A stretch of 64,000 nucleotides of DNA from Novosphingobium barchaimii LL02 (GTDB lineage: Bacteria > Pseudomonadota > Alphaproteobacteria > Sphingomonadales > Sphingomonadaceae): contig NZ_KQ130454.1 of NCBI RefSeq assembly GCF_001046635.1, positions 503,501 to 567,500 on the forward strand. The letters run 5' to 3'. The translations under genes were made by a program, and so were the position numbers. This document shows, piece by piece, positions 15,577-31,718 of the stretch (positions within the stretch are counted from its first letter, which is position 1; every line of letters begins with the position of its first letter). Below the pieces are notes generated by a model that had not been told where the DNA came from, ran no database searches, and saw nothing but the letters and a program-made list of their open reading frames with translations.

Positions 15577-15606
15577 GCAAAAAGCCCCGGTTTCCCGGGG
15601 CTTTCG
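15577..15606 (-). terminator. Original tRNA-Leu terminator, left copy
   Basis: Ten-base-pair stem AAAGCCCCGG/CCGGGGCTTT (15581-15590 with 15595-15604) with an A-run on the plus strand, that is a T-run when read on the minus strand. The 30 bases 15577-15606 are identical to 31572-31601. Before the island integrated this would have ended the tRNA-Leu transcript; today it lies 16 kb from the tRNA and can also stop transcription from the HxlR gene. Confidence 0.8.
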
Positions 15607-15635
15607 ACTACTTGCGGTACCTTCGAAAAGGTAAC

Positions 15636-15651
15636 TGGTGCCCAGAAGAGG
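15636..15651. other. Left attachment site (attL core) of the island
   Basis: The 16 bases TGGTGCCCAGAAGAGG are identical to 31632-31647, which is the 3' end (including encoded CCA) of tRNA-Leu read on the minus strand. A tRNA 3' end repeated at the far side of an integrase-bearing segment is the classical footprint of site-specific integration. The distance between the two cores is 15,996 bases. Confidence 0.88.
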
Positions 15652-15994
15652 CATCAAGGCTTGCTAGAATACCGCAGAAAACGGCGGTTTAACAACTGCC
15701 TGATTTGGAGAAGGCCCCTAAAAAGGCCCCCAACTACTGACATAAGCTACCTACAAGGTTATGAGCTTATAGCAGCATGCGGACCTCGAAAAAAGTGCCG
15801 TTGGCGGAGAGGGTGTCCGACAAATGAGCAGGCAGAAACCCAGGATTTCCGGGCGTTTCGCCCTCTCCTCCAGCATGTGACCCTAAAACTGACCCTAAAA
15901 CCAAGCCACGTAGCGAGGTTTAACCTCAGGCACGCTCTCGCGCATGAAGCCTAATCGGCCCCGCGCCGCAGGTTGCCATTTTCTCGCTCTGACA
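15652..15994. other. Left end of island, no gene; arm-type repeats
   Basis: No credible coding region. It holds GGCCCC-rich repeats at 15711-15732 (AGGCCCCTAAAAAGGCCCCC), similar to those at the right end, likely integrase arm sites. A perfect tandem 12-mer TGACCCTAAAAC lies at 15878-15901. Around 15797-15814, TTGGCGGAGAGGGTG resembles the 3' end of a tRNA-Ser on the minus strand. Confidence 0.5.
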
Positions 15995-16906
15995 CTACGC
16001 CCAGAGCGGGCGCGTTTCCCAGCCGATTGGAAAGCCCATCGCAGCCAAATCCGTCTCTGGATGAGTTGCTAAGTGTGCACGTACATCCTGCCGCCAAGTT
16101 GAATTTGGGGCAACCGTACGGACGACGTGCCCGATCATGCTCAAGCCGTTGTAGAGCCGTGCCGGCGCCTGTGTCGCATTCTGATCAAGGGTCGCAGCAA
16201 GGTCAGAGGGTTTCTGCGCCAACTTGGGTGGCTGGAGAAAGCCGCGGTTCCATAGGCGACCATGATGAGCGCAGATGTTACGCAGATCAGTCACGTGCCT
16301 GACTAATGGCACCAGCACCGTCTCGGGCAATCCAAGCGGGCGGGCGATCTGATTGCGTAGCGCGCGGTCTTCGAGGTTTGAATACCAACGTGACAATTGC
16401 CCAAACGACATCATTTCCGCGACCATCCAGACCGGCGGGATGGCGGGCGCGCTGTAAATTTCACGATAATGCTTGATGTACGTCTCGCGCGACCAACCCG
16501 CCTCACCCACGAGCTTGGCGAGTTGCTTGTGAAACTCCTCGCGCTTCGCATAAAGGCTGGCATCAAGATAGGAATGACCATCACCCAGTTGGGCCAACGC
16601 ATAGGCCCAGCTACCACGTAGGGCCACTTCAACATGTTCCGTGCCGCGCATGACCTGCCGCCGTAAAATCCGGTCGAAATCGTACAGTGCTGTCACCCGA
16701 TCAAAGGTGGTGCCCGGTTTGAACCGGGGGCCCGGCTGGCCCTTGGGATGCTCGAAGTAGAGCCAGTATGCGCTCAATCGATAATAACTGACATGGCGCA
16801 GCCAGTATTCAGCCAACGGCTCATCGGGAATGGTCATCCCGTTTGCCTTCAGGTGAGCAATCTGCTGTTCCCAGGTCAACGATGGCTTGGCGTACGTGCG
16901 GGTCAT
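15995..16906 (-). CDS. Abi_2 family abortive-infection protein (AbiF/AbiD-like, HEPN)
   Basis: A 303-residue protein of the Abi_2 family. The N-terminal half has the family pattern LTWEQQIAHLKANGM and YYRLSAYWLYF, then LYDFDRILRRQVMRGTEHVEVALR. The C-terminal half carries LRNICAHHGRLWNR, where Arg209 and His214 form the R-x4-H signature of HEPN ribonucleases. Family members stop phage spread by arresting the infected cell. The ATG at 16906 was chosen because the longer frame to 17029 runs through a structured, T-run-containing leader. That leader looks like an ncRNA gene on the same strand, as seen for abiF loci. Divergent from hsdM. Confidence 0.85.
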   Translation of the reverse strand: MTRTYAKPSLTWEQQIAHLKANGMTIPDEPLAEYWLRHVSYYRLSAYWLYFEHPKGQPGPRFKPGTTFDRVTALYDFDRILRRQVMRGTEHVEVALRGSWAYALAQLGDGHSYLDASLYAKREEFHKQLAKLVGEAGWSRETYIKHYREIYSAPAIPPVWMVAEMMSFGQLSRWYSNLEDRALRNQIARPLGLPETVLVPLVRHVTDLRNICAHHGRLWNRGFLQPPKLAQKPSDLAATLDQNATQAPARLYNGLSMIGHVVRTVAPNSTWRQDVRAHLATHPETDLAAMGFPIGWETRPLWA

Positions 16907-16937
16907 TTCCGTGACTTTCTGCCACGAGAACCGCCCC

Positions 16938-16997
16938 AAAAAAAGACCCGCCCAGTGTGCATTCCACAAGGGAAGAGGCCGGGCGGGTGCGATTGAC
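16938..16997 (-). ncRNA. Probable abiF-type structured ncRNA upstream of the Abi gene
   Basis: On the minus strand, an 8-bp stem ACCCGCCC/GGGCGGGT (16981-16988 with 16946-16953) encloses a smaller hairpin TTCC-CTTGT-GGAA and is followed at once by a C and seven Ts (16938-16944), so the RNA ends as an intrinsic terminator 31 bases before the Abi start codon. A possible -10 TACTAT (17004-17009) lies just upstream, with weaker -35 candidates near 17024-17032. Structured RNAs next to abiF genes are known; identity with that family is inferred from position and shape, not from a covariance search. Confidence 0.6.
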
Positions 16998-17206
16998 AAG
17001 CAAATAGTAGGCAATTTCCTACAAATCAAGAACGATGAGACGGGGTGAGACCGGATGAGAAAGAAAATGCTAGCGCGCGCCCACCAGGCAGCAGGCCTCC
17101 GCTACCGTCGAAACGAGTCTGCCCTCCCTTCTTTCAAACGCAAATCGGCTGATAGCCTCTATTTTCCCGTCGCATTGAACTCGCCAGACACCTAGGGCAA
17201 CACGCA

Positions 17207-19045
17207 ATGCGGGGAGTTGCAAGCTTGAACCATCAGTCGCTTTCGAATTTCATCTGGTCCGTCGCGGACCTCCTGCGCGGAGACTATAAGCAGTCCGAGT
17301 ACGGGCGCGTGATCCTGCCGTTCACGGTGCTGCGCCGCCTCGATTGTGTGCTTCAGCCGACCAAGGCCGCCGTCATCGCGCAGGTAGAAGCTCACCGCCC
17401 CGATCCTTTCCTGATCCGCGCGGCTGGCCACAACTTCTTCAACCGCAGCCCGCTTGATCTCGGCAAGCTCGTTGGTGACCAGGACAACATCGGCACCAAC
17501 CTCCTCGCCTATATCCAGGGCTTTTCGCCGGAGGTGCGCGACATCTTCGAGCAATTCGAGTTCGCCGCGCAGATCGACCGGCTCGCCAAGAACGGCCTGC
17601 TCTACCAGGTCACCGAACGCTTCTCCCGGATCGACCTGCACCCTGCGCGGGTCGACAACACGCACATGGGCCTCGCCTTCGAGGAACTGATCCGCAAGTT
17701 CGCGGAGATCAGCAACGAAACAGCCGGTGAGCATTTCACCCCGCGAGAGGTGATCCGACTCATGGTCAACCTGCTGTTCGTCGAAGACAACGACGTTCTA
17801 TCGAAGCCTGGTATCGTGCGTTCAATCTACGATCCCACCGGAGGCACCGGTGGTATGCTTTCCGTCGCAGGCGAATACCTTCGAGAATACAATCCGGATG
17901 CCCACCTCACGATGTGGGGGCAGGAACTGAACCCAGAGTCCTATGCGATCTGCAAGGCAGACATGTTGATCAAAGGGGAGGACATCACCCGCATCGTCCA
18001 GGGCAACACCCTGTCGGACGACGGCCACCACGGGCAGACCTTCGATTACATGCTATCCAATCCGCCCTTCGGCGTGGAATGGAAGAAGGTTCAGAAGGCG
18101 GTGCAGGACGAGCACCTCCAGCAGGGCTACAATGGGCGCTTCGGCCCCGGCCTCCCGCGCGTGTCCGATGGCTCGCTACTGTTCCTGATGCACCTGCTCT
18201 CCAAGATGCGCCCCTGGCAGGAGGGCGGCTGCCGCTTCGGCATCGTGCTCAACGGCTCGCCCCTGTTTACGGGCGGCGCGGGCAGCGGGGAAAGCGAGAT
18301 CCGGCGCTATGTTCTGGAGAACGATCTTGTCGAGGCCATCATCGCTCTGCCGGCCGACATGTTCTACAACACCGGGATCGCAACCTACGTGTGGGTCCTG
18401 TCGAACAAGAAGCCGAAGGAACGCACAGGCAAGGTCCAGTTGATCGACGCCAGTGCGTTCTGGCAGAAGATGCGCAAGTCGCTGGGCAGCAAGCGCAAGG
18501 AAATGAGCGACGACCACATCGCCGACGTCACACGCTTGTTCGGCCAGTTCGTCGAAGCACAGTTGGCCAGCGTGTTTGATGCAAGCGGCAAGGAACTATC
18601 TCGCGCCATTGTGATCGAAGGCGAAGCTGCGCCTGAGGCGCCAGCAGGCGGCAAGGTCAAACTCGCCCCGCTCTCGCGCATCTTCGAAAACCAGAGCTTC
18701 GGCTACCACACCATCACCGTGGAACGGCCCTTGCTGGGCGAGGACGGCAAGACGTTACTGGGCCAGCGCGGCAAAGCCAAGGGCAAGGTCCAGCCGGACA
18801 CATCCTTGCGCGATACCGAGAACGTGCCGCTGACCGAGGACATCGAGGCGTACTTCGCGCGCGAGGTGAAGCCCCATGCCCCCGATGCCTGGATCGATTC
18901 CGAGAAAACCAAGGTGGGTTACGAGATCCCCTTCAACCGCCACTTCTACGTCTTCGAGCCGCCCCGCCCGCTGGCCGAAATCGACGCCGAACTGGCAGAG
19001 GTCACTACTCGCATTCAGGGCATGTTGCGGGAGCTGGCAGCGTGA
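17207..19045 (+). CDS. hsdM: Type I restriction-modification system methyltransferase subunit HsdM
   Basis: A 612-residue N6-adenine DNA methyltransferase. The N-terminal helical domain ([24 protein letters not shown]) packs on HsdS. The catalytic domain shows [12 protein letters not shown], the SAM motif [10 protein letters not shown] from Asp209 and the catalytic NPPFG from Asn285. It would methylate the site chosen by HsdS and, with HsdR, form the restriction complex. The ATG at 17207 has AGGG about nine bases ahead. It is the first gene of a plus-strand operon: its stop overlaps the hsdS GTG start by four bases. The promoter must lie in 17040-17206, between it and the divergent Abi locus. 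Confidence 0.95.
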
Positions 19046-21042
19046 GCTTTCCAGCATATCCAGAATACCGTCAAACCGACGTTGATTGGCTGGCAAGCAT
19101 CCCAAGTGGATGGACATTGTCCAGGCTCGGCTTCGAAAGCTGGGTTAGAGCTCGCTTGGGCTGGAAGGGGCTGAAAGCCGACGAATACGTTGAGGAGGGC
19201 TATGCAATGCTAGCCACTCCAAACATAAAAAGCGCGAAGATCGATTTCGACGGTGCTAATAGAATTACACGCGATCGTTACGATGAGTCGCCTGAGATAA
19301 AATTGCGCGAAGGCGACGTTCTACTCGCCAAAGATGGCTCTACGCTAGGAACGGTAAATTTCGTTCGAAACCTCGACCGAGAAACGACGGTAAACAGTTC
19401 TATTTCTGTCATAACTCCGCACGCACGTACTGGCGGCGCATTCTTACATTACTACTTCCAAGCTGACTATGTCGTTGCAAACATCGCAGCCTTGAAAGGA
19501 GGCATGGGCGTACCGCACCTTTTCCAGTCCGACCTAGTCAAATTCCCACTCGCACTTCCCTCGTTACCTGAGCAGCAAGCAATCGCCGCCTTCCTCGACC
19601 GGGAGACGGCGAAGATTGATGCGCTGGTGGCGGAGCAGGAGCGGTTGATCGCGCTGCTTAAGGAAAAGCGTCAGGCGGTCATCTCCCATGCCGTCGCCAA
19701 GGGCCTGAACCCCGACGCCCCCATGAAAGACAGCGGCATCGAATGGCTCGGCCAGATCCCCGCGCATTGGGAGTTGGGGCGGATCAAACATTCCGTGCTG
19801 AAGATCGAGCAGGGCTGGAGTCCACAGTGCGACGCCACGCCTGTTGCCGGCCCGGACCAGTGGGGTGTTCTCAAAGTGGGCTGCGTAAATGGGGAACGGT
19901 TCAACCCAGCCGAGAATAAGGCACTGCCAGATAATCTGGAGCCGGTGCCGGACTTGGCCTTGACCGTTGGAGATGTCTTGATCTCGCGCGCCAATACACG
20001 CGAGTTGGTTGGAGGCGCCGCATTGGTCGAACAGGATTTCGGCAATTTGATGCTATGCGACAAGCTGTACCGCCTCCGCATAGACCCTAGATATGCCAGC
20101 CCGGCATTCATCACCCTTTACTTGCGTAGCAGCATGGTCCGCAGCCAAATCGAGGTCGCTGCGACTGGCGCGAGCAGTTCGATGCTCAACATTGGGCAAG
20201 GCGTAATATTGGAGTTGGCCTTCCCGATACCCCCGGTGGAAGAACAGCACACGATTGCGAAGGCAATCCGCGAAAACCAGATGCGGGTAGCGGAACTTGT
20301 CGCCCAAGCCCAATCCGCCATCGCTCTGTTGCAAGAACGCCGCGCCGCGCTGATCTCGGCTGCCGTCACCGGCAAGATCGACGTGCGCAGCGTATTTGAG
20401 GCAGGCAACGTCGTTGCTCTCCCGACGAAAATCACCGCAGCCGCCTTGCCGTCGTCCCGCGCCGTGGTTGGTGCGTATGCCATCCGATACCTCGGCCAAA
20501 TGGGACGCATGGCGGTGATGAAGGTTGGCTATCTCGCCCAAGCTCACGTTGGGGTTCACGAACTGGCAGGAACATACGAACGCTATGCGGCAGGACCATA
20601 CGACGGCGACTTGATCAACGCGATGCAACACGGGGCTGAAAGCATCTGCGGGATAGTGACGGAGGAGCCATCCTCGAAAGGCGACGCCGTGAAGTATAAA
20701 ATTCCGCAGACCCTGCACATGCCGTCCGGCATGCTGGAAGCGGCTCTTGGCCCAGACCGCATGCGCGCGTTCCTGAACTTGATCGATCTGTTGAAGGGCC
20801 AAAGCAGGGAGGGCGTCGAGGCGATCGCAACGCTCTATGCGGTCTGGAACGACCTGATCGCCAGCGGGCGCGATGTGACAGATGATGCCATCTGTAATGG
20901 CGTCTTCGACTGGCATCTCGAGAAGCGCGAGAAGTTCAGCCGCGATACGCTTGAGAACTGGCTGGGCTGGATGCGCCGAAACGGCGTAGTACCAGACGGC
21001 TCGGCTCCACGTACCGACCATCAGGGAGATTTGTTCGCATGA
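19042..21042 (+). CDS. hsdS: Type I specificity subunit HsdS with C-terminal DUF4065/Panacea-like extension
   Basis: At 666 residues this is far longer than a normal HsdS (about 400-450). It holds two target-recognition domains (about 1-180 and 235-410), each followed by a conserved helical spacer ([21 protein letters not shown] and [15 protein letters not shown]). After residue 450 comes about 200 residues not needed for specificity. The stretch [19 protein letters not shown] and [12 protein letters not shown] resembles the DUF4065 (SocA/Panacea) fold of antitoxin-like domains; this match is by eye and tentative. The first recognition domain is clearly AT-richer than its surroundings, suggesting domain exchange. 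GTG start overlaps hsdM; its stop overlaps the next ATG (ATGA). Confidence 0.88.
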
Positions 21043-21971
21043 GCCGGGCCATCGGGCGCAGCCTCGAACTTTACTACATCGACGGTCGCCCCGATGGCAT
21101 GCTGACCGCCGAGATGTTCAACTGGACTGGCCACGTCCTGATGGCCCCGCGTACTCAGATTGCAACCGCTCTTGCTCGCGAGGAAGCGGCCTACGCCGGC
21201 ATCTACCTCTTGCTAGGCGAGCAGGACGGCGAACCGCTGGCTTATATCGGCGAAGGTGAAGACATCTCAGCACGCATCCGCAGCCATGATGTGAAGAAGG
21301 ACTGGTGGACCAGCGCCATCCTCGTCACCGCGTCGGCCAACAAGCTGAACAAGGCCCACGCCCGCTATCTAGAAGCCCGCCTAATCGCCGAGGCGAAGGC
21401 GATTGGACGGATGCCGCTCGAAAACACAGTGACGCCTGCGCTGCCTTCGTTAAGCGAAGCCGACATCGGCAAGATGGAAGCGTTCCTGGAAAACATCCTC
21501 GTGGTCCTGCCGGCCGTGCGCGTCGATATGTTCATCCAACGCGTGCGCTCAGCCCCCAAGGCGGCGATCATCTCCACACCGACGCGCCCCTTTACCCAGC
21601 CGGAACCGGAAGCCCGCTTCGTCCTTGAGAACCGCAAGCACAACCTGACAGCGTTTGCCGTACTCGAAGATGGTGAGTTCGTGGTCGAGGAAGGCTCACA
21701 AGCCCGTCGCGAATGGGCCAGCGCCCATATGCACGGTTACAGCAAGCTCCACGCCGAACTGAAACACGCTGGCGTCCTGACTGAAGATGGCGAACGCTGC
21801 ACCTTCGCCAAAAGCTATGCTTTTCAAAGCCCGAGCGCGGCGGCTGCCGTGGTCGACGGCAGACCGGCGAACGGCACAACCGAGTGGATTAACGTCGCCA
21901 CCCGCCAGACCTACAAGGAATGGGAAGCAGGTCGTATCGACGCGGCACAACCTGACGAGGCCCTTGCCTGA
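21039..21971 (+). CDS. GIY-YIG nuclease family protein with DUF4357 domain
   Basis: 310 residues. The GIY-YIG nuclease core spans about 52-120: GIY at 54-56, YIG at 69-71, the conserved Arg79 in ISARIRSH and the glutamate in YLEARLIAEA. The C-terminal part (about 205-295) has the DUF4357 pattern: AVLEDGEFVVEEGSQARREW, then FQSPSAAAAVVDGRPANGTTEW split over this region. Proteins of this architecture occur in restriction and other defence loci, but their substrate is not settled. ATGA overlap with hsdS and TGATG overlap with the next gene show it is made together with the restriction enzyme. It may be a second effector or an accessory. Confidence 0.85.
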   Translation: MSRAIGRSLELYYIDGRPDGMLTAEMFNWTGHVLMAPRTQIATALAREEAAYAGIYLLLGEQDGEPLAYIGEGEDISARIRSHDVKKDWWTSAILVTASANKLNKAHARYLEARLIAEAKAIGRMPLENTVTPALPSLSEADIGKMEAFLENILVVLPAVRVDMFIQRVRSAPKAAIISTPTRPFTQPEPEARFVLENRKHNLTAFAVLEDGEFVVEEGSQARREWASAHMHGYSKLHAELKHAGVLTEDGERCTFAKSYAFQSPSAAAAVVDGRPANGTTEWINVATRQTYKEWEAGRIDAAQPDEALA

Positions 21972-23068
21972 TGCCCGTGTACGAACTTGTCGAAGGCAAG
22001 CTGACGGCTGCTAACCAGACCTTTTTCCAAGCTGAAGGACTGAAGGAACGGCAGGACATCCAGCGCATGTTGCGCGAGCAGATCGGCATTTTAGGCGACG
22101 ACCTAATGGTCCTCGCAGAAGAATACGGGGGCTGGGTCGACAGCTACCGACGCATTGACCTTCTGTGTCTCGACGCCGATGCCAATTTGGTTGTCGTTGA
22201 ACTCAAACGTGACGATGCCGCGCACATGGAACTGCAGGCCCTGCGCTATGCAGCAATGGTCGCGCGCATGACTTTCGCCGAGGCCGTCGATGCTCACGCG
22301 GATTTCCGTCGCCGAAACGGCATGGACGATGACGGCGCTGAAGCGGCCCTACTCGACTTTTTGCGCTGGACTGAACCGCAGGAGGAAGCCTTTGCCCAAT
22401 CTGTCAGAGTCATTCTCGCCTCAGCAGATTTCGGCAAAGAACTCACCACAGCAGTTCTCTGGCTACGTGATCAGGGCATCGACATCACCTGCATTCGGCT
22501 CGGCCCGTGCAAGCTATCCGATGGGCGTCTGCTCCTCGACGTTCAACAGATCATCCCTTTGCCGGAAGCCGCTACATTCCAGACACAAATTGGCCTCAAG
22601 CGCCGGGCCGAACGTAAGGATCAGGGCGAGCGCCATAGTCTTCGACAACTGTTCTGGACCGGCCTCTTGGCCCTGCCTGCCGCTACTCGCTATGCGGGCA
22701 AGGCAGTACCAACCGGTGGATGGATTGCCAGCAAGACAGAGTTCGAGGGCGTTGAACTCAACCTGGTGATCCGCAAAACTGACTGCCAAGCAGAGTTGTA
22801 TATCGACTGCGGTCGCGGTGCCGAAGATCGTAATATCGCTCTCTTCGAACACCTGCAGAAAAACCGCGATCAGATTAACATCGGCTTTGGCGGCAAGCTC
22901 TTGTGGCAGCCGCTCGAAGGACGGCGGGCATGCCGGATCGCAACATTGTGCGACGGTGGCTGGAAGTCACCCGAACAGCAGTGGGGCAAAGCGCAACAGG
23001 ACATGCTTGACTCTGCCCATCGCCTTCTGGCGGCGGCGCACCCATACCTTCAGACCTGGAATGGTTAA
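21971..23068 (+). CDS. PD-(D/E)XK nuclease-like protein with DUF4268 domain
   Basis: 365 residues. The N-terminal half has a PD-(D/E)XK core of the NucS/DUF91 kind: Asp63 in RRIDLLCL and Glu77-x-Lys79 in VVVELKRD, with a following helix (ELQALRYAAMV). The C-terminal half, after about residue 220, matches DUF4268 (LRQLFWTGLLALP, then LFEHLQKNRDQINIGFG and LLWQPLEG). The nuclease residues are intact, so it should be active. It lies between the GIY-YIG gene and hsdR with the start overlapping the previous stop (TGATG), so the operon encodes three predicted nucleases in all. Role unknown; possibly an accessory of the type I system. Confidence 0.8.
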   Translation: MPVYELVEGKLTAANQTFFQAEGLKERQDIQRMLREQIGILGDDLMVLAEEYGGWVDSYRRIDLLCLDADANLVVVELKRDDAAHMELQALRYAAMVARMTFAEAVDAHADFRRRNGMDDDGAEAALLDFLRWTEPQEEAFAQSVRVILASADFGKELTTAVLWLRDQGIDITCIRLGPCKLSDGRLLLDVQQIIPLPEAATFQTQIGLKRRAERKDQGERHSLRQLFWTGLLALPAATRYAGKAVPTGGWIASKTEFEGVELNLVIRKTDCQAELYIDCGRGAEDRNIALFEHLQKNRDQINIGFGGKLLWQPLEGRRACRIATLCDGGWKSPEQQWGKAQQDMLDSAHRLLAAAHPYLQTWNG

Positions 23069-23075
23069 GAGCCAA

Positions 23076-26000
23076 ATGAGCCTGCATAAGGAAATCAGCT
23101 TCGAGGACGAAATATGCGCCGATATGGCTGCAGCGGGTTGGCTATACGAAGAAGGTTCCGCTGCGTGCTACGATCGCGCCCGCGCCCTCTACCCTGAAGA
23201 CCTGCAGATATGGCTGGAAGATAGCCAGCCGAAGGTTTGGGAGGGCTTGGTCAAGTCGCACGGCCATGCAGCCATCGACATCCTCTGCGATCGGGTGCGC
23301 AAGTCTCTCGATGATCGCGGCACACTCGATGTTCTGCGCTACGGCGTGGAACTGATCGGCGTCCGTGGGCTGGTCGGCCTAGCCCAGTTCAAGCCCGCCT
23401 CGGGCATGAACCCGGAGATCGTCTTGCGGTACGAAGCGAACCGACTGCGCGTCGTGCGGCAAGTGCGCTATTCGAAAGCCAACGAGAACTGCATCGACCT
23501 CGTGCTGTTTCTCAATGGCATCCCGGTCGCTACGACAGAGTTGAAGACCAACTTCACTCAGACCGTGGGCGATGCGATCGACCAGTACAAGTTCGACCGC
23601 AATCCCAGGGCCGAACCGCTACTCTCGTTCGCGACCGGCGCCCTGGTACACTTCGGGGTCAGTAACCGCGACGTGATGATGACCACCAAGCTGCAGGGCG
23701 GTGCCACTCGCTTCCTGCCTTTCAACCGCGGCAACCATGGTGGCGCGGGCAATCCAACGGACTGCCCCGGCCATCCGACTGCATATCTCTGGCAAGAAAT
23801 CTGGCAGCGCGATAGCTGGCTGGAAATCCTCGGTCGCTACATGATCGCCAAGCGCGACAAGAAGAAGCAGATCAGCGCCATTATCTTCCCCCGCTACCAC
23901 CAACTCGATGGCACGCGGCAACTGCGACAACAGATCCGATCCGAAGGTGCCGGGGGCCGCTTCCTGATCCAGCACAGTGCAGGATCAGGCAAGACCAATT
24001 CCATCGCCTGGGCCGCGCACTTCTTGGCCGACCTCCACGACGACGCAGACGCGAAGATCTTTTCCAGCGTCATCGTGGTGTCCGACCGCAACGTCATCGA
24101 CGCCCAGTTACAGGAAGCCCTGTTCGAGTTCGAGCGAACCAAAGGCGTGGTGGCCACAATCACCAGCGACAGCGGCAGCAAGAGTGCCGCGCTGGCAGAC
24201 GCTCTCGACGCGGGCAAAAAGATCATCGTCTGCACCATGCAGACCTTCCCCTTCGCCTTGGAAGCCGTACGCGAACGCGCGGCGACGCAGGGCAAGAAAT
24301 TTGCCGTCATCGCCGACGAGGCCCATAGCAGCCAAGCGGGTGAAACCGCCAGCAAGCTCAAGGCCGTACTCACCCCCGAGGAGATCGAGGAGATCTCGGA
24401 CGGGGGCGAGATCAGCAGCGAGGACCTTCTCGCTGCCCAAATGGCAGCGCGGGCTGCGAAGGACGGCGTGACTTACGTCGCTTTCACCGCCACGCCAAAG
24501 ACCAAGACCATGGAATTGTTCGGGCGCCGTCCCCAGCCGGAAGCACCCGCGAGCGAAACCAACAAGCCCGGCCCGTTCCATATTTACTCGATGCGTCAGG
24601 CAATCGAGGAAGGCTTCATACTCGACGTCCTCAAGAACTACACGCCGTACAAGCTTGCCTTCAAGCTCGCGAACGGCGGGCAAGAGTTCGACGAGCAGGA
24701 GGTCGAGAAAAGCGCGGCCATGAAGGGCCTCATGCGCTGGGTCCGGCTCCACGACTACAACATCTCGCAAAAGGTCCAGATCGTCGTGGAGCATTTCCGC
24801 GAAAACGTGGCGCCGCTGCTCGACGGCAAGGCGAAAGCCATGGTCGTGCTTGGCAGCCGATTGGAAGCTGTGCGCTGGCAGATCGCGATCCAGAACTACA
24901 TCAAGTCGCAGGGCTACCGAATGTCGACAATGGTCGCTTTCTCCGGCGAGGTAAATGACCCCGAGAGCCACGGCGAACCGCTCAAGGAAACCGATGCGAA
25001 GCTGAACCCCACATTGAAGGGGCGCGACATCCGCGAGGCGTTCACCGATGAAGACGCCAAGATCTTGCTCGTCGCCAACAAGTTCCAGACTGGCTTCGAT
25101 CAGCCTCTGCTTTGCGGCATGTATGTGGATCGGCGTCTGGCTGGCATTCAAGCGGTACAGACCTTGTCGCGCCTCAATCGCGCGCACCCCGGTAAGGACA
25201 CCACCTACGTGCTCGACTTCGTCAACAGCTCCGAAGAGGTGCTGACCGCGTTCCGCACCTACTACGAGACAGCCGAAATCACCGCCGGCACAGATCCCCA
25301 CCTGATCTTTGACCTGCGTGCGAAACTCGATGCATCGGGTCATTACGACAATCACGAAGTCGAACGCCTCGTACGCGTGGAACTCGACCCGCGAGCGACG
25401 CAGGGCCAGCTGATCTCAGCTCTTGAGCCGGTCGCGCAGCGGCTGCTGATCCAGTACAAGGACGCCTTCATGCGCATGAAGGATGCGCTAGCCAATAAGG
25501 ATCAGAAGGCGGCCAACGAAGCCAAGGACGAGGTCAATGCTCTGCTGCTGTTCAAGGGCGACATGCACGGTTTCGTAAGCCTCTACACCTTCCTCTCGCA
25601 GATCTTCGACTATGGCAACACCGACATTGAAAAGCGGTTCCTGTTCTTCAAGCGTTTGACCCCGCTGCTTGAATTTGGCCGCGAGCGCGACGGCGTGGAC
25701 CTGTCAGATGTCCGCCTGACCCATCATAACCTCAAGGACCAAGGCAAACGCGACCTCGGCGTTGCGGGTGGTGACCAGCCGCAGCTACCACCGATCACCG
25801 GGGTTGGAACGGGCAGCGTACAGGACAAGGAAAAGGCTCTGCTGGCCGACATCATCGCTAAAGTGAACGACCTGTTCGATGGTGAACTGACCGATGACGA
25901 CCAACTGATCTACGTAAACAACGTGATCAAGGGTAAACTGTTGGAGTCTGAAGCCCTTCGTGTTCAGGCCCAGAACAACTCCAAGGCGCAGTTTGCTGCG

Positions 26001-26183
26001 TCACCCACGCTTGCGAACGAAATCCTCAACGCCGTCATGGATGCCCTGACCGCGCACGAGACCATGAGTACACAGGCACTGAACAGCGCCCAAGTTCGTG
26101 CGGGCCTGAAAGACATCCTGCTTGGACCTGGACAACTATACGAGGCGTTGAGGAATACCTCCAACGTAGACACGGCAGTTTAG
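23076..26183 (+). CDS. hsdR: Type I restriction endonuclease/translocase subunit HsdR
   Basis: About 1035 residues, normal for HsdR. The N-terminal PD-(D/E)XK nuclease has Asp141, Glu155 and Lys157 (NCIDLVLF and TTELKTN). The SF2 translocase follows with Walker A AGSGKT at 302-307, the DEAH box at 414-417, FTATPKTKTMELFG (motif III) and the second RecA domain up to LSRLNRAHPGKD (motif VI). A C-terminal helical domain binds HsdM. Start ATG 23076 lies eight bases after the previous stop and follows AAGAG; the open frame continues upstream to 22818 inside the preceding gene without support. Cuts unmethylated DNA after ATP-driven translocation. Confidence 0.95.
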   Translation: MSLHKEISFEDEICADMAAAGWLYEEGSAACYDRARALYPEDLQIWLEDSQPKVWEGLVKSHGHAAIDILCDRVRKSLDDRGTLDVLRYGVELIGVRGLVGLAQFKPASGMNPEIVLRYEANRLRVVRQVRYSKANENCIDLVLFLNGIPVATTELKTNFTQTVGDAIDQYKFDRNPRAEPLLSFATGALVHFGVSNRDVMMTTKLQGGATRFLPFNRGNHGGAGNPTDCPGHPTAYLWQEIWQRDSWLEILGRYMIAKRDKKKQISAIIFPRYHQLDGTRQLRQQIRSEGAGGRFLIQHSAGSGKTNSIAWAAHFLADLHDDADAKIFSSVIVVSDRNVIDAQLQEALFEFERTKGVVATITSDSGSKSAALADALDAGKKIIVCTMQTFPFALEAVRERAATQGKKFAVIADEAHSSQAGETASKLKAVLTPEEIEEISDGGEISSEDLLAAQMAARAAKDGVTYVAFTATPKTKTMELFGRRPQPEAPASETNKPGPFHIYSMRQAIEEGFILDVLKNYTPYKLAFKLANGGQEFDEQEVEKSAAMKGLMRWVRLHDYNISQKVQIVVEHFRENVAPLLDGKAKAMVVLGSRLEAVRWQIAIQNYIKSQGYRMSTMVAFSGEVNDPESHGEPLKETDAKLNPTLKGRDIREAFTDEDAKILLVANKFQTGFDQPLLCGMYVDRRLAGIQAVQTLSRLNRAHPGKDTTYVLDFVNSSEEVLTAFRTYYETAEITAGTDPHLIFDLRAKLDASGHYDNHEVERLVRVELDPRATQGQLISALEPVAQRLLIQYKDAFMRMKDALANKDQKAANEAKDEVNALLLFKGDMHGFVSLYTFLSQIFDYGNTDIEKRFLFFKRLTPLLEFGRERDGVDLSDVRLTHHNLKDQGKRDLGVAGGDQPQLPPITGVGTGSVQDKEKALLADIIAKVNDLFDGELTDDDQLIYVNNVIKGKLLESEALRVQAQNNSKAQFAASPTLANEILNAVMDALTAHETMSTQALNSAQVRAGLKDILLGPGQLYEALRNTSNVDTAV

Positions 26184-26549
26184 CTAGCGCCCCGCCCAGC
26201 TAAACCTTGGAAAACACGAAAATTTTCTTCGCGCAATTTCGCCGACAGTCAGCGCCCTAAGCCCGTTCTGGTCGAAAAAAGGGTGCTACCCTTCGTCGAC
26301 CAAGGCCAGAGAGCCACGTCAGATCACCGTAAGACTCGCATTCGCGCCGCAATTCAAAAGAATGCGCACGCGCGCGAACATCAAGGAATTTCCCCTTCGT
26401 CAACCACGCATTGTATCCAAGTATAGGACTTAGACACTCTTTTCCTCTATAGCTTATACTCATAGCATCACCCCTAATGCGCAACCATTAAATCTGTGTA
26501 TTTCGCATTCCAGCACAACATTGTGCTGTAAATTCGAAAGTGAATACGA
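26184..26549. other. AT-rich intergenic region after the restriction operon
   Basis: 366 bases, clearly AT-richer than the host DNA, between hsdR and the primase gene. It should contain the end of the restriction transcript and the promoter of the replication gene, but no strong hairpin with a T-run is visible. One weak minus-strand ORF (26257-26463) is listed separately. Confidence 0.4.
26257..26463 (-). CDS. Possible small ORF of unknown function
   Basis: A 68-residue frame starting at ATG 26463 with AGGGG seven bases upstream. The product is basic and aromatic (ILGYNAWLTKGKFLDVRARAH) and matches nothing I recognise. The codon use is not clearly coding and the region is otherwise an AT-rich spacer, so this may be spurious. 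Reported because the ribosome-binding site is good. Confidence 0.2.
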   Translation of the reverse strand: MSISYRGKECLSPILGYNAWLTKGKFLDVRARAHSFELRRECESYGDLTWLSGLGRRRVAPFFRPERA

Positions 26550-28736
26550 ATGATATTTGGCGCGCTAGCTTTGTTATATTGGGCAGTTGGCCTGCCCGTC
26601 ATGCCGCTGCGGGGCCTGACCAAGCGCCCCTTCATATCCAACTGGCAGGAGTTCTGCCACCGCATGCCGTCGATGACCGAACAGGCGGCCTGGATGAGCG
26701 CACACGCAGAGAACAATATCGGCCTGCCGCTTGGCCCGCAATCCGGTCTCTGCATGATCGACATCGACACCGACGACGAGGCGGCAATCGAGGTGATCAA
26801 GTCGGTTTTGCCCGCCAGCCCGTGGGAGCGCCGCGGCAAGAAGGGCATGGCCTTGGCCTATCGGTGGTCCGGCCAGCCGAACTTCAAGATCAAGGGCAGC
26901 AACGGCTCCATGCTCATTGAATGCCTCGGGGCCGGCAATCAGATCGTGCTGCCGCCCTCGATCCATCCGGATACGGGCCTCCCCTACGTGGCGACCGCCC
27001 AGTTGAATGAAGTGCTGGACGACATCCCGGAACTCCCTGCGGAGTTTGAGGCACGCCTTCGCGCAGCCCTTCATGCCTCTGGGCTTACCAGCCCCCCGCG
27101 TGCCCGGACCGCGTCGGGCAAGGTAGCTGATGGCAGCACCAGGGTCGATATTCCCGCTGAGCACGGAATTGCGCGGTTTCTAGCTGTCGCCCTTCAGGCT
27201 GCCTGCAACGAAATTCTGACGCAAACGGAAGGCGGCCGCAATACCACGCTGTTTGGCCAAGCAAAGGATCTGGCTCGCCATGTTGCGGCAGCTGAAGTCG
27301 AATGGGAGCCGTTCGCAGTGACGCTCGCTGAAGTTGGTCTTGCAGTCGGTTTGACGCCCGATGAGGTGCCGGCCTCGATCGACAGCGGCTGGAAGGCCGG
27401 ATCGCTCGAACCCACGGCCTGGATCCCGATCGCGGCTCAGTATGTCTACACTGGCAATCAGGATCGGATGTTTCACCCGGCATCGGGAGATTATCTTACG
27501 CAGAGCGGCTTCAATGGCATGCATGGTCGGGTACATGAAAGCCGTGAAGGCTTCTCGACCTTCCTGATGAATGGCGGGTTCGTAACCAAGGTCAGCGACA
27601 TTACCTACGATCCGATGGCTCCGACCGGCGTGATCCTCGGTGACGGACACTCGTACTACAACATATATCGCCCGTCGGGTGTCATGCCGACGCAGGGCGA
27701 AGCTCAGCCGTTCGTCGATTTCCTTGAGTTCCTGGTTCCTGAAGCGGCGGAACGGTCGCATCTTCTCAAGGTGATGGCACACACGGTCCGTGAGCCCGGT
27801 GAGCGGATCAGGCATGCGACCATCCTTCGCACCCGCAACCAGGGCGTAGGGAAGTCCATGTTGATCGACATTTGGCGACAGCTGGTAGGGGGCCACAATT
27901 TCCGGGAGACGTCCTCCCGGGAAATGCAGGGAAATTTCGAAGGCTGGCTCAAGGAGAACACGCTCCTGTACTGCCCGGAACTGAACATCGGGCACGGGCT
28001 GTCGACCTATAACGACCTCAAGGAACTGATCACTGCTGACAGCCTGATGATCAACGAGAAGCACCTGAAGCCCCGCCGGTGGCAGATTTACTCGACGATG
28101 GTGTTCACGACCAACCTGGCGGTGCCCCTGTTGATCGAGGCGGACGACCGAAGGATTTTCTTCATCGACAGTCCGGCCGTAGCACGTGCACCGAGTTATT
28201 ACGCTGGCTTGGCCAACTGGTTTAAGGCGAACATTGGTACTGTCCGCGCGTATCTGGACACCGTCGATCTGGCTGATTTCAACCCGTGGGCGCCGGCGCC
28301 GATGACCGAAGCCAAGAAGCGGCTGATCAATCGCAGTGCTACTCCGCTGGTACAGGACGTTGCTTTTGCGATCCGTGAGCGAAGGGGAACTCTGGACCGT
28401 GACGTAGTGACGCTGGATGAAATCACTTTTGCGCTGAGCGACCATGGAAAGGTCTCCCCTCGAGTGCTTGGTGCTGCCCTAAAAGAACTGGGTGCCCACC
28501 CCCTCGGCCAGCAGCGTATCCGCGACGGACGCCAGAGTCTGTGGATCATCCGCAATGTCGATCTCTGGATGTCTTGGACGTCGGCGGAACGGATTGAGGA
28601 GTATCAGCGTAGGACGGGCACGTTTGCCAATCTCGACGAGACCGAGGTGGCCCTGCGACTTGCTGGCCGTTTGAATGAGCCCGAACCGCTGTCGGCAATT
28701 GACCAACAGGCATCGGCGATCTGGATTTTCGCGTAA
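26550..28736 (+). CDS. Primase-polymerase/SF3-type helicase replication protein (P4-alpha/D5-like)
   Basis: A 728-residue replication protein with two parts. Residues 1-180 are a primase-polymerase (AEP) domain: the N-terminal strand AVGLPVMPLR with KRPF, the metal-binding Asp71-x-Asp73 in CMIDIDTDD and the later LPPSIHPDTG with its active-site histidine. Residues about 380-620 form a D5/DUF5906-like helicase with Walker A NQGVGKS (Lys435), Walker B-like LLYCPELN and the sensor segment MVFTTNLAVPL. Such proteins replicate P4-type satellites and similar elements after excision. ATG 26550 keeps the complete first strand of the primase fold. Expressed on its own; a palindrome and repeats follow. 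Confidence 0.85.
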   Translation: MIFGALALLYWAVGLPVMPLRGLTKRPFISNWQEFCHRMPSMTEQAAWMSAHAENNIGLPLGPQSGLCMIDIDTDDEAAIEVIKSVLPASPWERRGKKGMALAYRWSGQPNFKIKGSNGSMLIECLGAGNQIVLPPSIHPDTGLPYVATAQLNEVLDDIPELPAEFEARLRAALHASGLTSPPRARTASGKVADGSTRVDIPAEHGIARFLAVALQAACNEILTQTEGGRNTTLFGQAKDLARHVAAAEVEWEPFAVTLAEVGLAVGLTPDEVPASIDSGWKAGSLEPTAWIPIAAQYVYTGNQDRMFHPASGDYLTQSGFNGMHGRVHESREGFSTFLMNGGFVTKVSDITYDPMAPTGVILGDGHSYYNIYRPSGVMPTQGEAQPFVDFLEFLVPEAAERSHLLKVMAHTVREPGERIRHATILRTRNQGVGKSMLIDIWRQLVGGHNFRETSSREMQGNFEGWLKENTLLYCPELNIGHGLSTYNDLKELITADSLMINEKHLKPRRWQIYSTMVFTTNLAVPLLIEADDRRIFFIDSPAVARAPSYYAGLANWFKANIGTVRAYLDTVDLADFNPWAPAPMTEAKKRLINRSATPLVQDVAFAIRERRGTLDRDVVTLDEITFALSDHGKVSPRVLGAALKELGAHPLGQQRIRDGRQSLWIIRNVDLWMSWTSAERIEEYQRRTGTFANLDETEVALRLAGRLNEPEPLSAIDQQASAIWIFA

Positions 28737-29059
28737 ATTTATCGCCTCCGTTGTCTGTCTGTCTACCATCACCGGTGATGCTGCAGCCGTCGGCGTATGT
28801 TCACGACCTTCTATTTCTCGTTCTGTTTTCTTTAATCTCTCATAAAACTAAAATGATCATAGACAGTCAGACAGCAGGGGTGGCACTCCCAGCACCTCTG
28901 CGAGACTGAAATTCTGTCCCTAGTCATAGCTATAGTGCAAAAAATTCCGCTCGGTAGGTTGCGCGCCGACTCGCGGACTCTTACGTACATCAACGACCCG
29001 ACCGGAGGCGGCAACCTCCAGCCGGGTCTAACCATCAACCGTCCGTAGGAGACGACTCA
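28737..29059. other. Non-coding region after the primase: candidate origin or operator
   Basis: No gene. It holds a perfect 14-bp palindrome CATCACCGGTGATG (28767-28780), an AT-rich stretch (about 28800-28860) flanked by inverted repeats (TGTCTGTCTGTCT near 28752-28764 and AGACAGTCAGACAG at 28861-28874), and a leader hairpin (GACCCG/CGGGTC with inner GGAGG/CCTCC, 28995-29028) just before the next gene. An AT-rich core between inverted repeats beside a primase-helicase gene fits a replication origin, but this is inference. Confidence 0.45.
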
Positions 29060-29344
29060 ATGGCTGATACGCCGACTAGCAGCGTGGCCCGCATCTGGGC
29101 CAGCGCGACCACCAATATCGACAACCTTCATCAACAGCTTGGTTCCGAACCCGCTGACCGGCGCGCTCTGGAAGAGCGCCTTGCAGCCTCCGAAGAGCAC
29201 CTCCTTGGCCTTCGCGCTCCGGACATCACCGGCGTGATCCGCAAGCTCGATACGCTGTGGCAGCAGCAGCTTCACGGCTTGGACGGCGTGTCCCGCCAGA
29301 AGCTGATGGTCATCCAAGACCTTCGCCGCCTGACCATCGCGTAA
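29060..29344 (+). CDS. Unknown small protein, predicted alpha-helical
   Basis: 94 residues, start ATG 29060 with AGGAG at good spacing. The sequence is helix-rich and amphipathic (ADRRALEERLAASEEHLLGLR, with LDTLWQQQL), without cysteines, signal peptide or membrane segment, so a small coiled-coil or adaptor is likely. I do not recognise a family. It sits in the island between the replication gene and the regulator/integrase module with another unknown gene 82 bases downstream; the pair may be co-transcribed. Confidence 0.6.
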   Translation: MADTPTSSVARIWASATTNIDNLHQQLGSEPADRRALEERLAASEEHLLGLRAPDITGVIRKLDTLWQQQLHGLDGVSRQKLMVIQDLRRLTIA

Positions 29345-29426
29345 CTGACGACTCTCAAGCCGAGCAGAACTGGGACTGGCGCCGCGAAGCGTGCGCTGCC
29401 CTCCTGCGCTGTGTGAAGGACCCGAA

Positions 29427-29867: not shown

Positions 29868-29964
29868 AAATCTAGGCCTTAGTCCAAGACTTACACCATC
29901 AAGGCGTTTGGCAAGGCGTCAACCCGCATATACGACCGACCTCCCAAACACGTTGGAGGTTATC

Positions 29965-30144: not shown

Positions 30145-30295
30145 TCGCCAGCTCCAAATCTAGTTCTCGTTCTTCATTCTCAAATCGTTGATCTCGCTGC
30201 TCGTGGCGAGGTGGTTCGGGCCGCAGCGCCCCACACCACCTGCGCCAGTCGTCGGCAGCACCTCCACCCAGAATATACCTGATGGCAGGACAACG

Positions 30296-31483
30296 ATGCC
30301 CCTTACGAACGCTACGATTAAGAATGCCAAGCCTCGCGAGAAGGATTGGAAGCTGAAGGACGAGAAGGGCCTCTACGTCCTCATCACGACGAAAGGCTCC
30401 AAGCTCTGGCGCCTGAAACTGCGCCCCAATGGAGTCGAGAAAAAGCTCAGCTTCGGAGCTTGGCCCGACGTCTCGCTCAAAGAGGCACGTGAATTGCGAG
30501 ATGAAGCGCGCGCAGCAGTGCAGGAGGGCCGCGACCCCTCGCGCGAGCGGAAAAAGGCGAAATGCGACGCACGGCGTGAGGCTGCTCACACCTTTGGCGC
30601 GGTCGCGGACGAGTTTCTCGCGAAACGCCGGAACGACGGCCTTGCAGAAACCACGCTGAAGAAAAAGGTCTGGCTGCTCGACCAGCTCAAATCGTCCATT
30701 GGAAATGCACCTGTGGCCGATGTTTCTGTGCCCGAACTGCTCGCGGCGATCCGGCTTGTCGAAAAAGAGGGAAAACGCGAGACAGCAAGGCGGCTGCGAT
30801 CTATCGCGGGTGAGGTATTCAGCTACGCCATCGCCACGGGGCGTGCCGCTGCCAATCCGGCCGCGACGTTGCGCGGCGCGCTGCTAACACCTCAAGTCAC
30901 GCATATGCCGGCCGTCGTCGAAGTCGATCAGGCCAAGGCGCTTATGCGCGCCATCGACGATTGCACCGGCTACCCGTCCACGCTTGCAGCCCTTCGGATT
31001 TCCCCGCACCTGTTCCAGCGACCGGGCGAGATCAGGCAAATGAAGTGGGACGACCTCAAGCTCTCGGAGGCCCGGTGGACTCCTCAGATCGAGGACATGA
31101 AAATGCGCAAGCGGCATGAGGTTCCGCTTTCGAGGCAGGCGATTATCATTATCAGAGAGATGGCCGCGTTGCGGAATGGACCGTATGTGTTTCCCGCATT
31201 TCACACTGGCCGTCGTCCGATTTCCGAGAACACCGTCAATGGTGCCCTTCGCCGGATTGGGTACAAAGGCAAAATGACGGCCCATGGCTTTCGCTCGATG
31301 GCCAGCACTCTGTTGAACGAGTCGAGCAAATGGAACCCGGATGCGATCGAAGCCGCACTCTCTCACAAAGTGGGGAACACGATCCGCGCCACCTACAATC
31401 GTGGCGCGTATTGGAACGAGCGCGTTGAGATGATGCAGTGGTGGAGCGACTGGCTCGACGAACTCAAGGCGGGAGCGCGCTGA
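30296..31483 (+). CDS. int: P4-type tyrosine-recombinase integrase
   Basis: 395 residues. N-terminal DUF4102-like arm-binding domain (LTNATIKNAKPREKDWKLKD, LRPNGVEKKLSFGAWPDVSL), a SAM-like core-binding domain (about 95-180), and a catalytic domain with Arg242 (QRPGEIR), Lys272, His330-x-x-Arg333 (HGFR), His357 and the nucleophile Tyr367 (RATYNRGAY). All catalytic residues are present, so the enzyme should be active. ATG 30296 has AGGA at five bases; the frame reaches back to 30188 without support. It lies 149 bases from the tRNA-Leu attachment site, on the opposite strand to the tRNA. Confidence 0.92.
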   Translation: MPLTNATIKNAKPREKDWKLKDEKGLYVLITTKGSKLWRLKLRPNGVEKKLSFGAWPDVSLKEARELRDEARAAVQEGRDPSRERKKAKCDARREAAHTFGAVADEFLAKRRNDGLAETTLKKKVWLLDQLKSSIGNAPVADVSVPELLAAIRLVEKEGKRETARRLRSIAGEVFSYAIATGRAAANPAATLRGALLTPQVTHMPAVVEVDQAKALMRAIDDCTGYPSTLAALRISPHLFQRPGEIRQMKWDDLKLSEARWTPQIEDMKMRKRHEVPLSRQAIIIIREMAALRNGPYVFPAFHTGRRPISENTVNGALRRIGYKGKMTAHGFRSMASTLLNESSKWNPDAIEAALSHKVGNTIRATYNRGAYWNERVEMMQWWSDWLDELKAGAR

Positions 31484-31487
31484 TCAC

Positions 31488-31519
31488 AGGCCCCTTTCGA
31501 GGCCCCCAAAAGGCCCCCA
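31488..31519. repeat. Right-end GGCCCC arm-type repeats
   Basis: Three closely spaced AGGCCCC-type units, ending AAAAGGCCCCCA, occur here. The left end of the island has the closest match at 15711-15732. Repeats shared by both ends of an integrating element and absent elsewhere nearby are candidate integrase arm-binding sites. Confidence 0.5.
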
Positions 31520-31543: not shown

Positions 31544-31571
31544 TGGGCGAACACCGACGGATGCCATATAA

Positions 31572-31601
31572 GCAAAAAGCCCCGGTTTCCCGGGGCTTTC
31601 G
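31572..31601 (-). terminator. tRNA-Leu terminator, right copy
   Basis: Same 30 bases as 15577-15606. Read on the minus strand it forms a GC-rich ten-base stem ending in a T-run, about 30 bases downstream of the tRNA 3' end. This copy probably came with the element as part of its attachment region and now terminates the tRNA transcript. Confidence 0.8.
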
Positions 31602-31631
31602 GCTATTTACGGCCACCTCCGAAAAGGTGAA

Positions 31632-31647
31632 TGGTGCCCAGAAGAGG
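31632..31647. other. Right attachment site (attR core) within tRNA-Leu 3' end
   Basis: TGGTGCCCAGAAGAGG, identical to 15636-15651. It covers the CCA end, discriminator base and the acceptor 3' strand of the tRNA, so integration leaves the tRNA intact. Confidence 0.88.
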
Positions 31648-31718
31648 ACTCGAACCTCCACGCCCTTGCGAGCGCCAGCACCTGAAGCTGGTGCGTCTAC
31701 CAATTCCGCCATCTGGGC
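31632..31718 (-). tRNA. tRNA-Leu (anticodon CAG)
   Basis: 87 bases including the encoded CCA. Acceptor stem GCCCAGA/TCTGGGC, the D-arm GGAATTGGTAGACGC, the anticodon stem CCAGC/GCTGG with loop TTCAGGT (anticodon at 31682-31684), a long variable arm as expected for leucine tRNA, and the T-arm GAGGTTCGAGTCCTC. Its 3' end is the island attachment site. A promoter with a perfect TTGACA lies 40-75 bases upstream. Confidence 0.95.

Follow-up and report, generated by a model that had tools for sequence, protein, structure and literature searches.

A predicted type I restriction operon with two nuclease genes between hsdS and hsdR and exchangeable C-terminal halves in both nucleases

Genes and features of the locus

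The window, i.e. the whole stretch of 64,000 nucleotides from Novosphingobium barchaimii LL02 that was analysed, contains an island of roughly 16 kb at a tRNA-Leu gene. Within the island lies a real and intact five-gene operon, hsdM-hsdS-(GIY-YIG/DUF4357)-(PD-(D/E)XK/DUF4268)-hsdR, with all genes on the plus strand (Table 1). The gene order and the GTGA, ATGA and TGATG joints given by an initial annotation were confirmed, as was the long hsdS. The gap before hsdR had been given as eight bases; the last base of the DUF4268 stop codon is 23068 and HsdR has its first plausible ATG at 23076, which makes the gap seven bases. A second in-frame ATG at 23061 would overlap the stop of the DUF4268 gene.

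Table 1. Positions of the genes, protein parts and repeats in the window
Feature	Position	Strand	Evidence and remarks
attL-like imperfect direct repeat	15577..15653	.	match to 31572-31650, perfect over 30 bp and imperfect thereafter
Abi_2/AbiD gene, upstream of hsdM, within island, start not fixed	15995..16903	-	Abi_2 2e-50, AbiD 6e-64
hsdM, type I N6-adenine methyltransferase subunit, 612 aa	17207..19045	+	PF02384 3e-58, HsdM_N 3e-28, PADLOC MTase_I 3e-269
hsdS, specificity subunit, two variable TRDs and C-terminal tail, 666 aa	19042..21042	+	Methylase_S 1e-15, PADLOC Specificity_I 2e-130
HsdS C-terminal tail	20404..21039 (start approximate)	+	relatives in L011, L013, L018, L156, L159
GIY-YIG nuclease with DUF4357 (RAMA-like) C-terminal domain, 310 aa	21039..21971	+	PADLOC PDC-S14 1.5e-112, DUF4357 1e-13
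Exchangeable C-terminal half of GIY-YIG protein, aa 193-310	21615..21968	+	N/C identity contrast, mosaic profiles in relatives
NucS/EndoMS-like PD-(D/E)XK nuclease with DUF4268 C-terminal domain, 365 aa	21971..23068	+	PADLOC PDC-S11, DUF4268 E=2e-14
Exchangeable C-terminal half of DUF4268 protein, aa 222-365	22634..23065	+	unequal N/C identities, N- and C-half trees in conflict, mosaic profiles among relatives
hsdR, restriction/translocase subunit, 1035 aa	23076..26183 (alternative start 23061)	+	HSDR_N 4e-16, SWI2_SNF2 1e-19
Prim-Pol/DUF5906 protein of island	26550..28736	+	
Phage-type integrase of island	30188..31483	+	Phage_integrase 8e-21, Arm-DNA-bind_3 5e-25
attR-like repeat	31572..31650	.	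runs into 3' end of tRNA-Leu (31632-31718, minus)

HsdM carries an intact NPPF motif. In HsdR the residues D141-(13)-E155-x-K157, Walker A and DEAH are all present, i.e. the motifs of both a PD-(D/E)XK nuclease and an SF2 translocase; its match to TIGR00348 (3e-48) is under the cutoff of that profile. Comparison with relatives of HsdS revealed variable TRD1 and TRD2 together with conserved central and distal regions. The locus thus has the hallmarks of a type I system in all three subunits, and it is a predicted complete type I restriction-modification operon.

In the long HsdS, a part with two TRDs is followed by a tail covering about residues 455-666. The tail belongs to a six-sequence family for which no match was found in Pfam, or in PDB by sequence search. 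A likeness to the C-terminal domain of DarG, noticed by eye, obtained a probability of only 1.1% and an E-value of.048 in a profile comparison, and the idea of an antitoxin was therefore dropped.

The two embedded nucleases

The GIY-YIG protein has an intact motif consisting of GIY (54-56), YIG (69-71), R79, E112 and N129, and these residues are kept in 73 aligned sequences. No Pfam match to a GIY-YIG domain was obtained for the window protein at E<=1, and a first Foldseek run on the model found nothing significant (best E.086). The predicted fold of residues 24-131 matches UvrC, the N-domain of a plant glutaredoxin and R.Eco29kI. Motif, alignment and predicted fold thus support the identification as a GIY-YIG nuclease. 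Residues 5-302 match positions 23-316 of the 320 in the PDC-S14 profile with an E-value of 1.5e-112. For the C-terminal half, the match to Pfam RAMA is weak and under the cutoff (E.03), and DUF3780 matches residues 210-289 with E 1.3e-11; certain proteins combine DUF3780 and RAMA in a fusion (PMC12839542). PDB sequence searches returned no match for the single protein and nothing useful for its profile.

The PD-(D/E)XK residues of the DUF4268 protein are likewise intact (E51, D63, E77-x-K79, Q89), so that signature residues are present in all three nucleases of the operon, as had been annotated. The motif residues named here for HsdM, HsdR and the two embedded nucleases are those which we take to be the catalytic positions of their families. 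Residues 1-357 match positions 1-339 of the 347 in the PDC-S11 profile (E 4.9e-108), and this profile fits relatives with another C-terminal half even better (G037; L176). A search of PDB with the single sequence found no match; the family profile gave short matches to NucS/EndoMS, the best with E.012. The C-terminal half resembles YbjN and secretion-chaperone folds. We know of no anti-phage activity for either PDC-S14 or PDC-S11.

Recurrence of the genes between hsdS and hsdR

Relatives were collected in two ways. The GIY sample consisted of 86 loci, without the window itself and without L005 and L006, which were fetched through the DUF4268 protein. Its genome loci were the best 80 of 571 relatives, so the sample leans to close relatives. 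For the HsdR sample 40 regions were fetched, of which 38 were complete; G001 (the centre) and G633 were left out, together with G038, G069 and G081, whose contigs are cut off near hsdR. L157 and L012 are one and the same locus.

In the GIY sample, with genome loci restricted to the best 80 of 571 relatives, hsdM, hsdS and hsdR all lie beside the GIY relative in 51 of 86 loci, the GIY gene stands between hsdS and hsdR in 40, and none of the three hsd genes is nearby in 29, 7 of these being on truncated contigs. In 22 of the 38 complete loci of the HsdR sample, hsdS and hsdR are more than 300 bp apart, and in six of the seven loci nearest in HsdR this slot holds a GIY gene, a DUF4268 gene or an unknown gene of about 180 amino acids. 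DUF4268 proteins are found between hsdS and hsdR in several lineages. As the position recurs across loci chosen by GIY and by HsdR, the arrangement is not accidental; it is not the case that the families are rare here and lie elsewhere in unrelated contexts. The two genes of the window belong to this recurrent arrangement. Both nucleases together were found only in the window and in five sphingomonad-related loci, and a genome-wide co-occurrence of the two families was unsupported, a loose threshold of E<=.001 adding a single genome (G236) with weak matches to both.

The content of the slot is interchangeable. Two R. mucosa plasmids, L001 with a GIY gene and L005 with a DUF4268 gene, share 97% identity in HsdR and 96% over 5.9 kb of downstream flank, i.e. 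one nuclease can replace the other in the same operon. Similarly, L009 is without the DUF4268 gene that its sister L010 has. Other slots contain a GmrSD type IV enzyme (L138), DarT with a macrodomain protein (L154), Abi_2, an AAA ATPase with a small gene, or nothing. Where the cargo has a Pfam family match, it is mostly of defence-related kinds. Relatives also adjoin genes of type III restriction-modification (L016), PDC-M27 (L029) and PDC-S37 (L024), and a protein with the N-terminal half of the DUF4268 family adjoins BREX genes.

Exchange of the C-terminal halves

Between near-identical operons both nucleases retain their cutting half but have had the C-terminal half exchanged, which resembles the exchange of target-recognition domains in HsdS. 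The GIY proteins of L040 and L037 have identities of.94 in the N-half and.44 in the C-half, with HsdM at.95-.98 and HsdR at.97-.99 in every third; for L215 and L035 the halves have.98 and.44. The corresponding values for the DUF4268 protein are.96 and.33 for L011 and L013, and.84 and.44 for L006 and L203, the latter with.96 in HsdM and.94 in HsdR.

Trees of the two DUF4268 halves (13 sequences, without L204 and L205, which are near-copies of L203) are in conflict, each rejecting the clade of the other with p-AU.0004 and.024. The GIY C-half rejects, with p-AU.03, a clade defined on the N-half tree, a test that was not blind because the C-half identities had already been seen. Earlier clade tests on this half rejected neither six acetic-acid-bacterial sequences (p.33) nor L012/L015/L159 (p.49). 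GIY pairs with similar C-halves and dissimilar N-halves were searched for by script cutoffs among 91 sequences (those far from full length, and L157, having been dropped) and in a comparison of up to 18 further family loci, out of 30 fetched, with 12 earlier sequences; none was found in either.

Dependence of the GIY C-half on HsdS was evaluated by partial correlation given HsdR, using the 465 of 496 pairs from 32 loci with enough aligned positions and TRD borders set by eye on the window HsdS. The coefficients were -.002 for TRD1 and.032 for TRD2, i.e. such a dependence was not found. Distances of the GIY N-half track HsdR (Spearman.73), and their partial correlation with HsdM given HsdR is only.045.

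Interpretation

We regard it as fairly probable that the hsdS-hsdR junction is a cargo slot of a type I operon and that in the window it carries two autonomous nucleases, in each of which a constant half cuts and an exchangeable C-terminal half senses. HsdM, HsdS and HsdR would mark self and cut DNA whose HsdS site carries no methylation. Most likely the GIY-YIG/DUF4357 protein would be a type IV-like enzyme, in which the RAMA-like half senses DNA foreign to the host, probably by base modifications against which the type I enzyme would fail, whereupon the GIY-YIG half would cut. This nuclease would probably be modification-dependent; for the DUF4268 protein we are less sure of that. The DUF4268 protein, EndoMS/NucS-like, would be a second unit of cutting and sensing, and given the YbjN/secretion-chaperone-like fold of its sensor half it may be triggered either by a protein or by modified DNA. 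Co-transcription would give a layered defence, presumably against phages, with sensor halves swapped between strains in the manner of HsdS target-recognition domains. Taken further, one operon would have four exchangeable recognition domains, two HsdS TRDs for self and two nuclease C-halves for kinds of non-self, which strains reshuffle on a constant catalytic chassis; we give this extension an even chance.

The C-halves may instead be exchanged because they meet phage proteins, either a trigger or an inhibitor to escape, and not DNA modifications, the nucleases then being phage-protein-triggered or inhibitor-driven effectors. This we consider possible though rather unlikely. That the slot is a mere recombination hot spot beside hsdS, where TRD exchange recruits homologous recombination and the operon position brings no advantage, appears improbable: the very different kinds of cargo would fit, and the same site has been termed a potential recombination hotspot in a published study (PMC12255303), whereas the recognisable cargo is mostly defence-related and the tight overlaps on one strand suggest co-transcription. 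Least probable, and unsupported by the data, is the coupling suggested in the initial annotation, that the two nucleases are parts of the type I complex or effectors coupled to it, here taken as activation on its inhibition or engagement in the manner of a PrrC-like alarm. The overlapping genes, the embedded PrrC gene as precedent (PMC12707154) and the tracking of HsdR by the GIY N-half speak for it, and against it stand the 29 GIY loci without hsd genes nearby (7 of them on truncated contigs), the relatives beside other systems, the varying cargo on an unchanged HsdR backbone, the GIY N-half/HsdM coefficient of just.045, a divergence of the GIY C-half that does not track HsdS and a linkage to type I genes that is not strict.

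Under the cargo-slot reading, as the data suggest, the operon would gain additional independent ways of recognising invaders. Variability of type I operons may then extend beyond HsdS, and further recognition modules may consequently escape surveys of type I specificity. Many embedded defence candidates are catalogue entries only, and replacement of the C-half on a nuclease half of 94-98% identity marks the part under diversifying conflict. The acetic-acid-bacterial GIY proteins and the DUF4268 pairs L011/L013 and L006/L203 are natural allele pairs for a trigger search by half-swapping. Should phage DNA modifications or phage proteins be what these halves recognise, the allelic classes are ready-made specificity-switch experiments in two uncharacterised nuclease families.

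Comparison with known systems

Precedents for the cargo-slot reading are PMC11411939, PMC12923530 and PMC11037411. PDC-S14 and PDC-S11 are PADLOC defence candidates based on guilt-by-embedding (Payne et al. 2024 preprint), catalogued as single-gene candidates; their shared slot and the modular replacement of their C-halves were not found described in the literature consulted. The exact pair was likewise not found there, but a comparable five-gene operon with two genes embedded among three hsd genes has been published: TgvAB of Vibrio VPI-2, a separate modification-dependent restriction system (PMC11411939). The TgvAB genes are related to GmrSD, unlike the GIY-YIG/DUF4357 and NucS-like/DUF4268 genes of the window.

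CMoRE, a GIY-YIG type IV enzyme (PMC12923530) and probably PDB entry 9u75, titled PD-T4-3, combines an N-terminal GIY-YIG domain with a C-terminal sensor in one protein, as the window protein may do. NucS/EndoMS and Shedu nucleases differ from the DUF4268 protein in the C-terminal half, and the DUF4268 protein is far under the NCBIfam NucS cutoff (25.7 versus 252 bits). The RRDM island has DarTG2 at the same hsdS-hsdR insertion site, its cargo being a toxin-antitoxin system where that of the window is two nucleases (PMC12255303).

Organisation of the operon and its island

The initial annotation had described a five-gene operon, hsdM, hsdS, a GIY-YIG/DUF4357 nuclease gene (GIY), a NucS-like PD-(D/E)XK/DUF4268 nuclease gene (DUF4268) and hsdR, joined by GTGA, ATGA and TGATG overlaps, and both this order and the joints were borne out by gene calls and sequence. 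The gap before hsdR, given there as eight bases, measures seven from 23068 to the ATG at 23076, and starting hsdR at the ATG at 23061 would turn it into an overlap. NCBIfam models for hsdM, hsdS and hsdR gave sub-cutoff matches. In alignments, the motif residues were kept in 73 GIY sequences and the nuclease motif residues in 14 DUF4268-family sequences. The PADLOC families PDC-S14 and PDC-S11 reportedly originate from a guilt-by-embedding preprint. The island has a GC content of 0.56-0.63 versus mostly 0.64-0.71 in the flanks.

Features of the operon and the island at tRNA-Leu (positions in the window)
Feature	Position	Assignment or remark
Integrative island, ~16 kb	15577-31650	Holds operon, integrase, Prim-Pol/DUF5906 gene and Abi_2 gene
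Imperfect direct repeat	15577-15653 and 31572-31650	Island ends
hsdM	17207-19045	Gene call; type I subunit by Pfam and PADLOC
hsdS	19042-21042	Gene call; type I subunit by Pfam and PADLOC
GIY-YIG/DUF4357	21039-21971	PADLOC PDC-S14, 1.5e-112
DUF4268	21971-23068	PADLOC PDC-S11, 4.9e-108
hsdR	23076-26183	Gene call; type I subunit by Pfam and PADLOC
Phage-type integrase	30188-31483	Adjoins tRNA-Leu

The C-terminal tail of HsdS (20404-21039) is common to just five other loci seen (L011, L013, L018, L156, L159), and gave no match in family or structure searches.

Replacement of the C-terminal half

Parts and slot (the hsdS-hsdR interval) are of known kinds. The feature that appears to be undescribed is replacement of the C-terminal half (C) of both embedded nucleases; a literature search, without preprints and most subscription journals, found no description of such exchange in either family.

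For DUF4268, the loci L011 and L013, each with all five genes, have identities of.96 in the nuclease half (N) and.33 in C, and DNA identity of.83-.90 drops to.47-.59 before returning to.81-.86 at hsdR. The C-half of L011 groups with those of L156 and L158 (C.65-.68, N.52-.53). In trees of 13 sequences, N supported L011+L013 (100/100) and rejected L011+L156+L158 (p-AU.0004), and C supported L011+L156+L158 (97/98) and rejected L011+L013 (p-AU.024). The same pattern was found between a Raoultella plasmid (L006) and a viral-collection contig (L203), with HsdM.96, HsdR.94, N.84 and C.44.

For GIY, the acetic acid bacterial loci L040 and L037 have HsdM and HsdR 95-99% identical in each third, and their GIY proteins are 94% identical over residues 1-160 versus 44% over residues 193-310. 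Sliding DNA identity has three troughs, at the two target-recognition domains of HsdS (TRD1, TRD2) and the GIY C-half, with mostly.85-1.0 between them. L215 and L035 are similar (N.98, C.44), and N of at least.85 with C of at most.60 was found in 28 of 4095 pairs from 91 GIY sequences, pairs which are not independent events. Clade tests were weaker for GIY than for DUF4268: the first clades tried gave p.33 and.49, and the N-half clade L035+L037+L040+L047 gave p.03 on the C-half and p.32 in the reverse direction.

Relation to type I specificity

C-half replacement was uncorrelated with HsdS where testable. In the comparison INDEPENDENCE FROM HsdS, the partial correlation of GIY C-half distance given HsdR was -.002 for TRD1 and.032 for TRD2 (465 locus pairs). 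All six pairs with GIY C-half identity above.8 had unrelated TRDs, and the five pairs with one TRD in common had GIY C-halves at.44 to.76; thus, the GIY C-half does not track the type I specificity of its host. The DUF4268 C-half is likewise apart from it in a single pair, L005 and L212 (C-half 99%, TRDs.28 and.31). Distance correlations with HsdR were.87 for HsdM,.73 for the GIY N-half,.53 for the GIY C-half, and.04 and.13 for the TRDs; replacement is therefore less frequent in GIY C-halves than in TRDs. The function we infer for the cargo (the genes in the slot) is that of two autonomous nucleases with exchangeable sensor halves; this reading is held slightly less firmly because the GIY nuclease half partly tracks HsdR and because the HsdR sample described below leans to cargo-bearing loci.

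Occupancy of the slot

The GIY-family genome scan provided 80 loci, the best 80 of 571 relatives, to which six plasmid loci were added. Among these 86, hsdM, hsdS and hsdR lay on the same strand in 51, the order hsdS-GIY-hsdR, possibly with other genes between, was found in 40 (four of which, L010, L011, L013 and L021, also have DUF4268), and 29 had no hsdM, hsdS or hsdR nearby, seven of them on truncated contigs.

HsdR was also used as query, in order to avoid selection by cargo. Matches at 1e-100 were found in 21 of 385 genomes of the class of Novosphingobium ovatum (the centre genome, source of L010), and matches in 22 of 397 genomes of its family. Forty regions were fetched, 38 of which had complete hsdM, hsdS and hsdR; the hsdS-hsdR interval exceeded 300 bp in 22 of these 38, in a sample which retains some lean, as all ten rows of the HsdR profile came from cargo-bearing loci. 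Six of the seven loci closest in HsdR contain GIY, a DUF4268 protein or an uncharacterised ~180-aa gene, and one, L156, has both nucleases.

The initial annotation proposed, as a check, co-occurrence of the two families between hsdS and hsdR. GIY recurs in this position in the 40 of 86 loci (best 80 of 571 relatives plus six plasmid loci). PDC-S11 and PDC-S14, at the E limits given next, occurred together in the centre genome alone among 385 class genomes. Separately, PDC-S11 (E<1e-60) was found in 8 of the 385, some with another C-half, and PDC-S14 (E<1e-30) in 17. The pair was seen in the window, L010, L011, L013, L021 and L156; apart from L156, which is from the family sample, the sources are Novosphingobium, Sphingomonas or a MAG of the Sphingomonadales. 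The cargo is interchangeable: on Roseomonas mucosa plasmids, one site has GIY in L001 and DUF4268 in L005, where the HsdR proteins share 97% identity and 5.9 kb of downstream DNA is 96% identical. The Novosphingobium loci L009 and L010 have the operon in common (hsdM 93.5%, DNA), with an unrelated reverse open frame in L009 at the position of the L010 DUF4268. Co-presence of the two nucleases looks like local assembly.

Known parts and other occupants

Published work describes the two embedded genes of a five-gene type I operon as a modification-dependent system (PMC11411939), DarTG2 in the hsdS-hsdR interval, a possible recombination hotspot (PMC12255303), a type IV enzyme with GIY-YIG (PMC12923530), and DUF4268 and DUF4357 as additional domains of GmrSD relatives (PMC4619093).

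Embedded positions were also occupied by GmrSD (L138, L052), by paired DarT and macrodomain proteins (L154, L031, L044), by an AAA ATPase (L141, L142) and by seven genes of one cluster spread over six loci (Abi_2 in the one checked, L062); some were empty. A small gene, ~170-180 aa in most, lies in the slot of L009, L010, L013, L021, L158 and L160, between GIY and DUF4268 once (L013) and elsewhere after hsdS; the one scanned (L010) had no Pfam match. A two-gene cargo recurs in the interval of L140, L141, L166 and L167, a ~420-580-aa frame followed by one of ~207-238 aa; in L141, the first matched AAA_21 and the second had no Pfam match. The protein at L088:10941-11975, in the second slot position, matches EVE (E.022) and NucS_C (E.14) weakly and may be another reader nuclease.

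The NucS-like N-half of the DUF4268 family carries a different C-terminal domain in L198-L202 and L176-L179, and a protein with this N-half adjoins BREX genes in L213. Immediately 3' of hsdR, L162, L163 and L165 encode a 715-aa protein, which in L163, the one scanned, is GmrSD_N fused to SLFN_AlbA_2.
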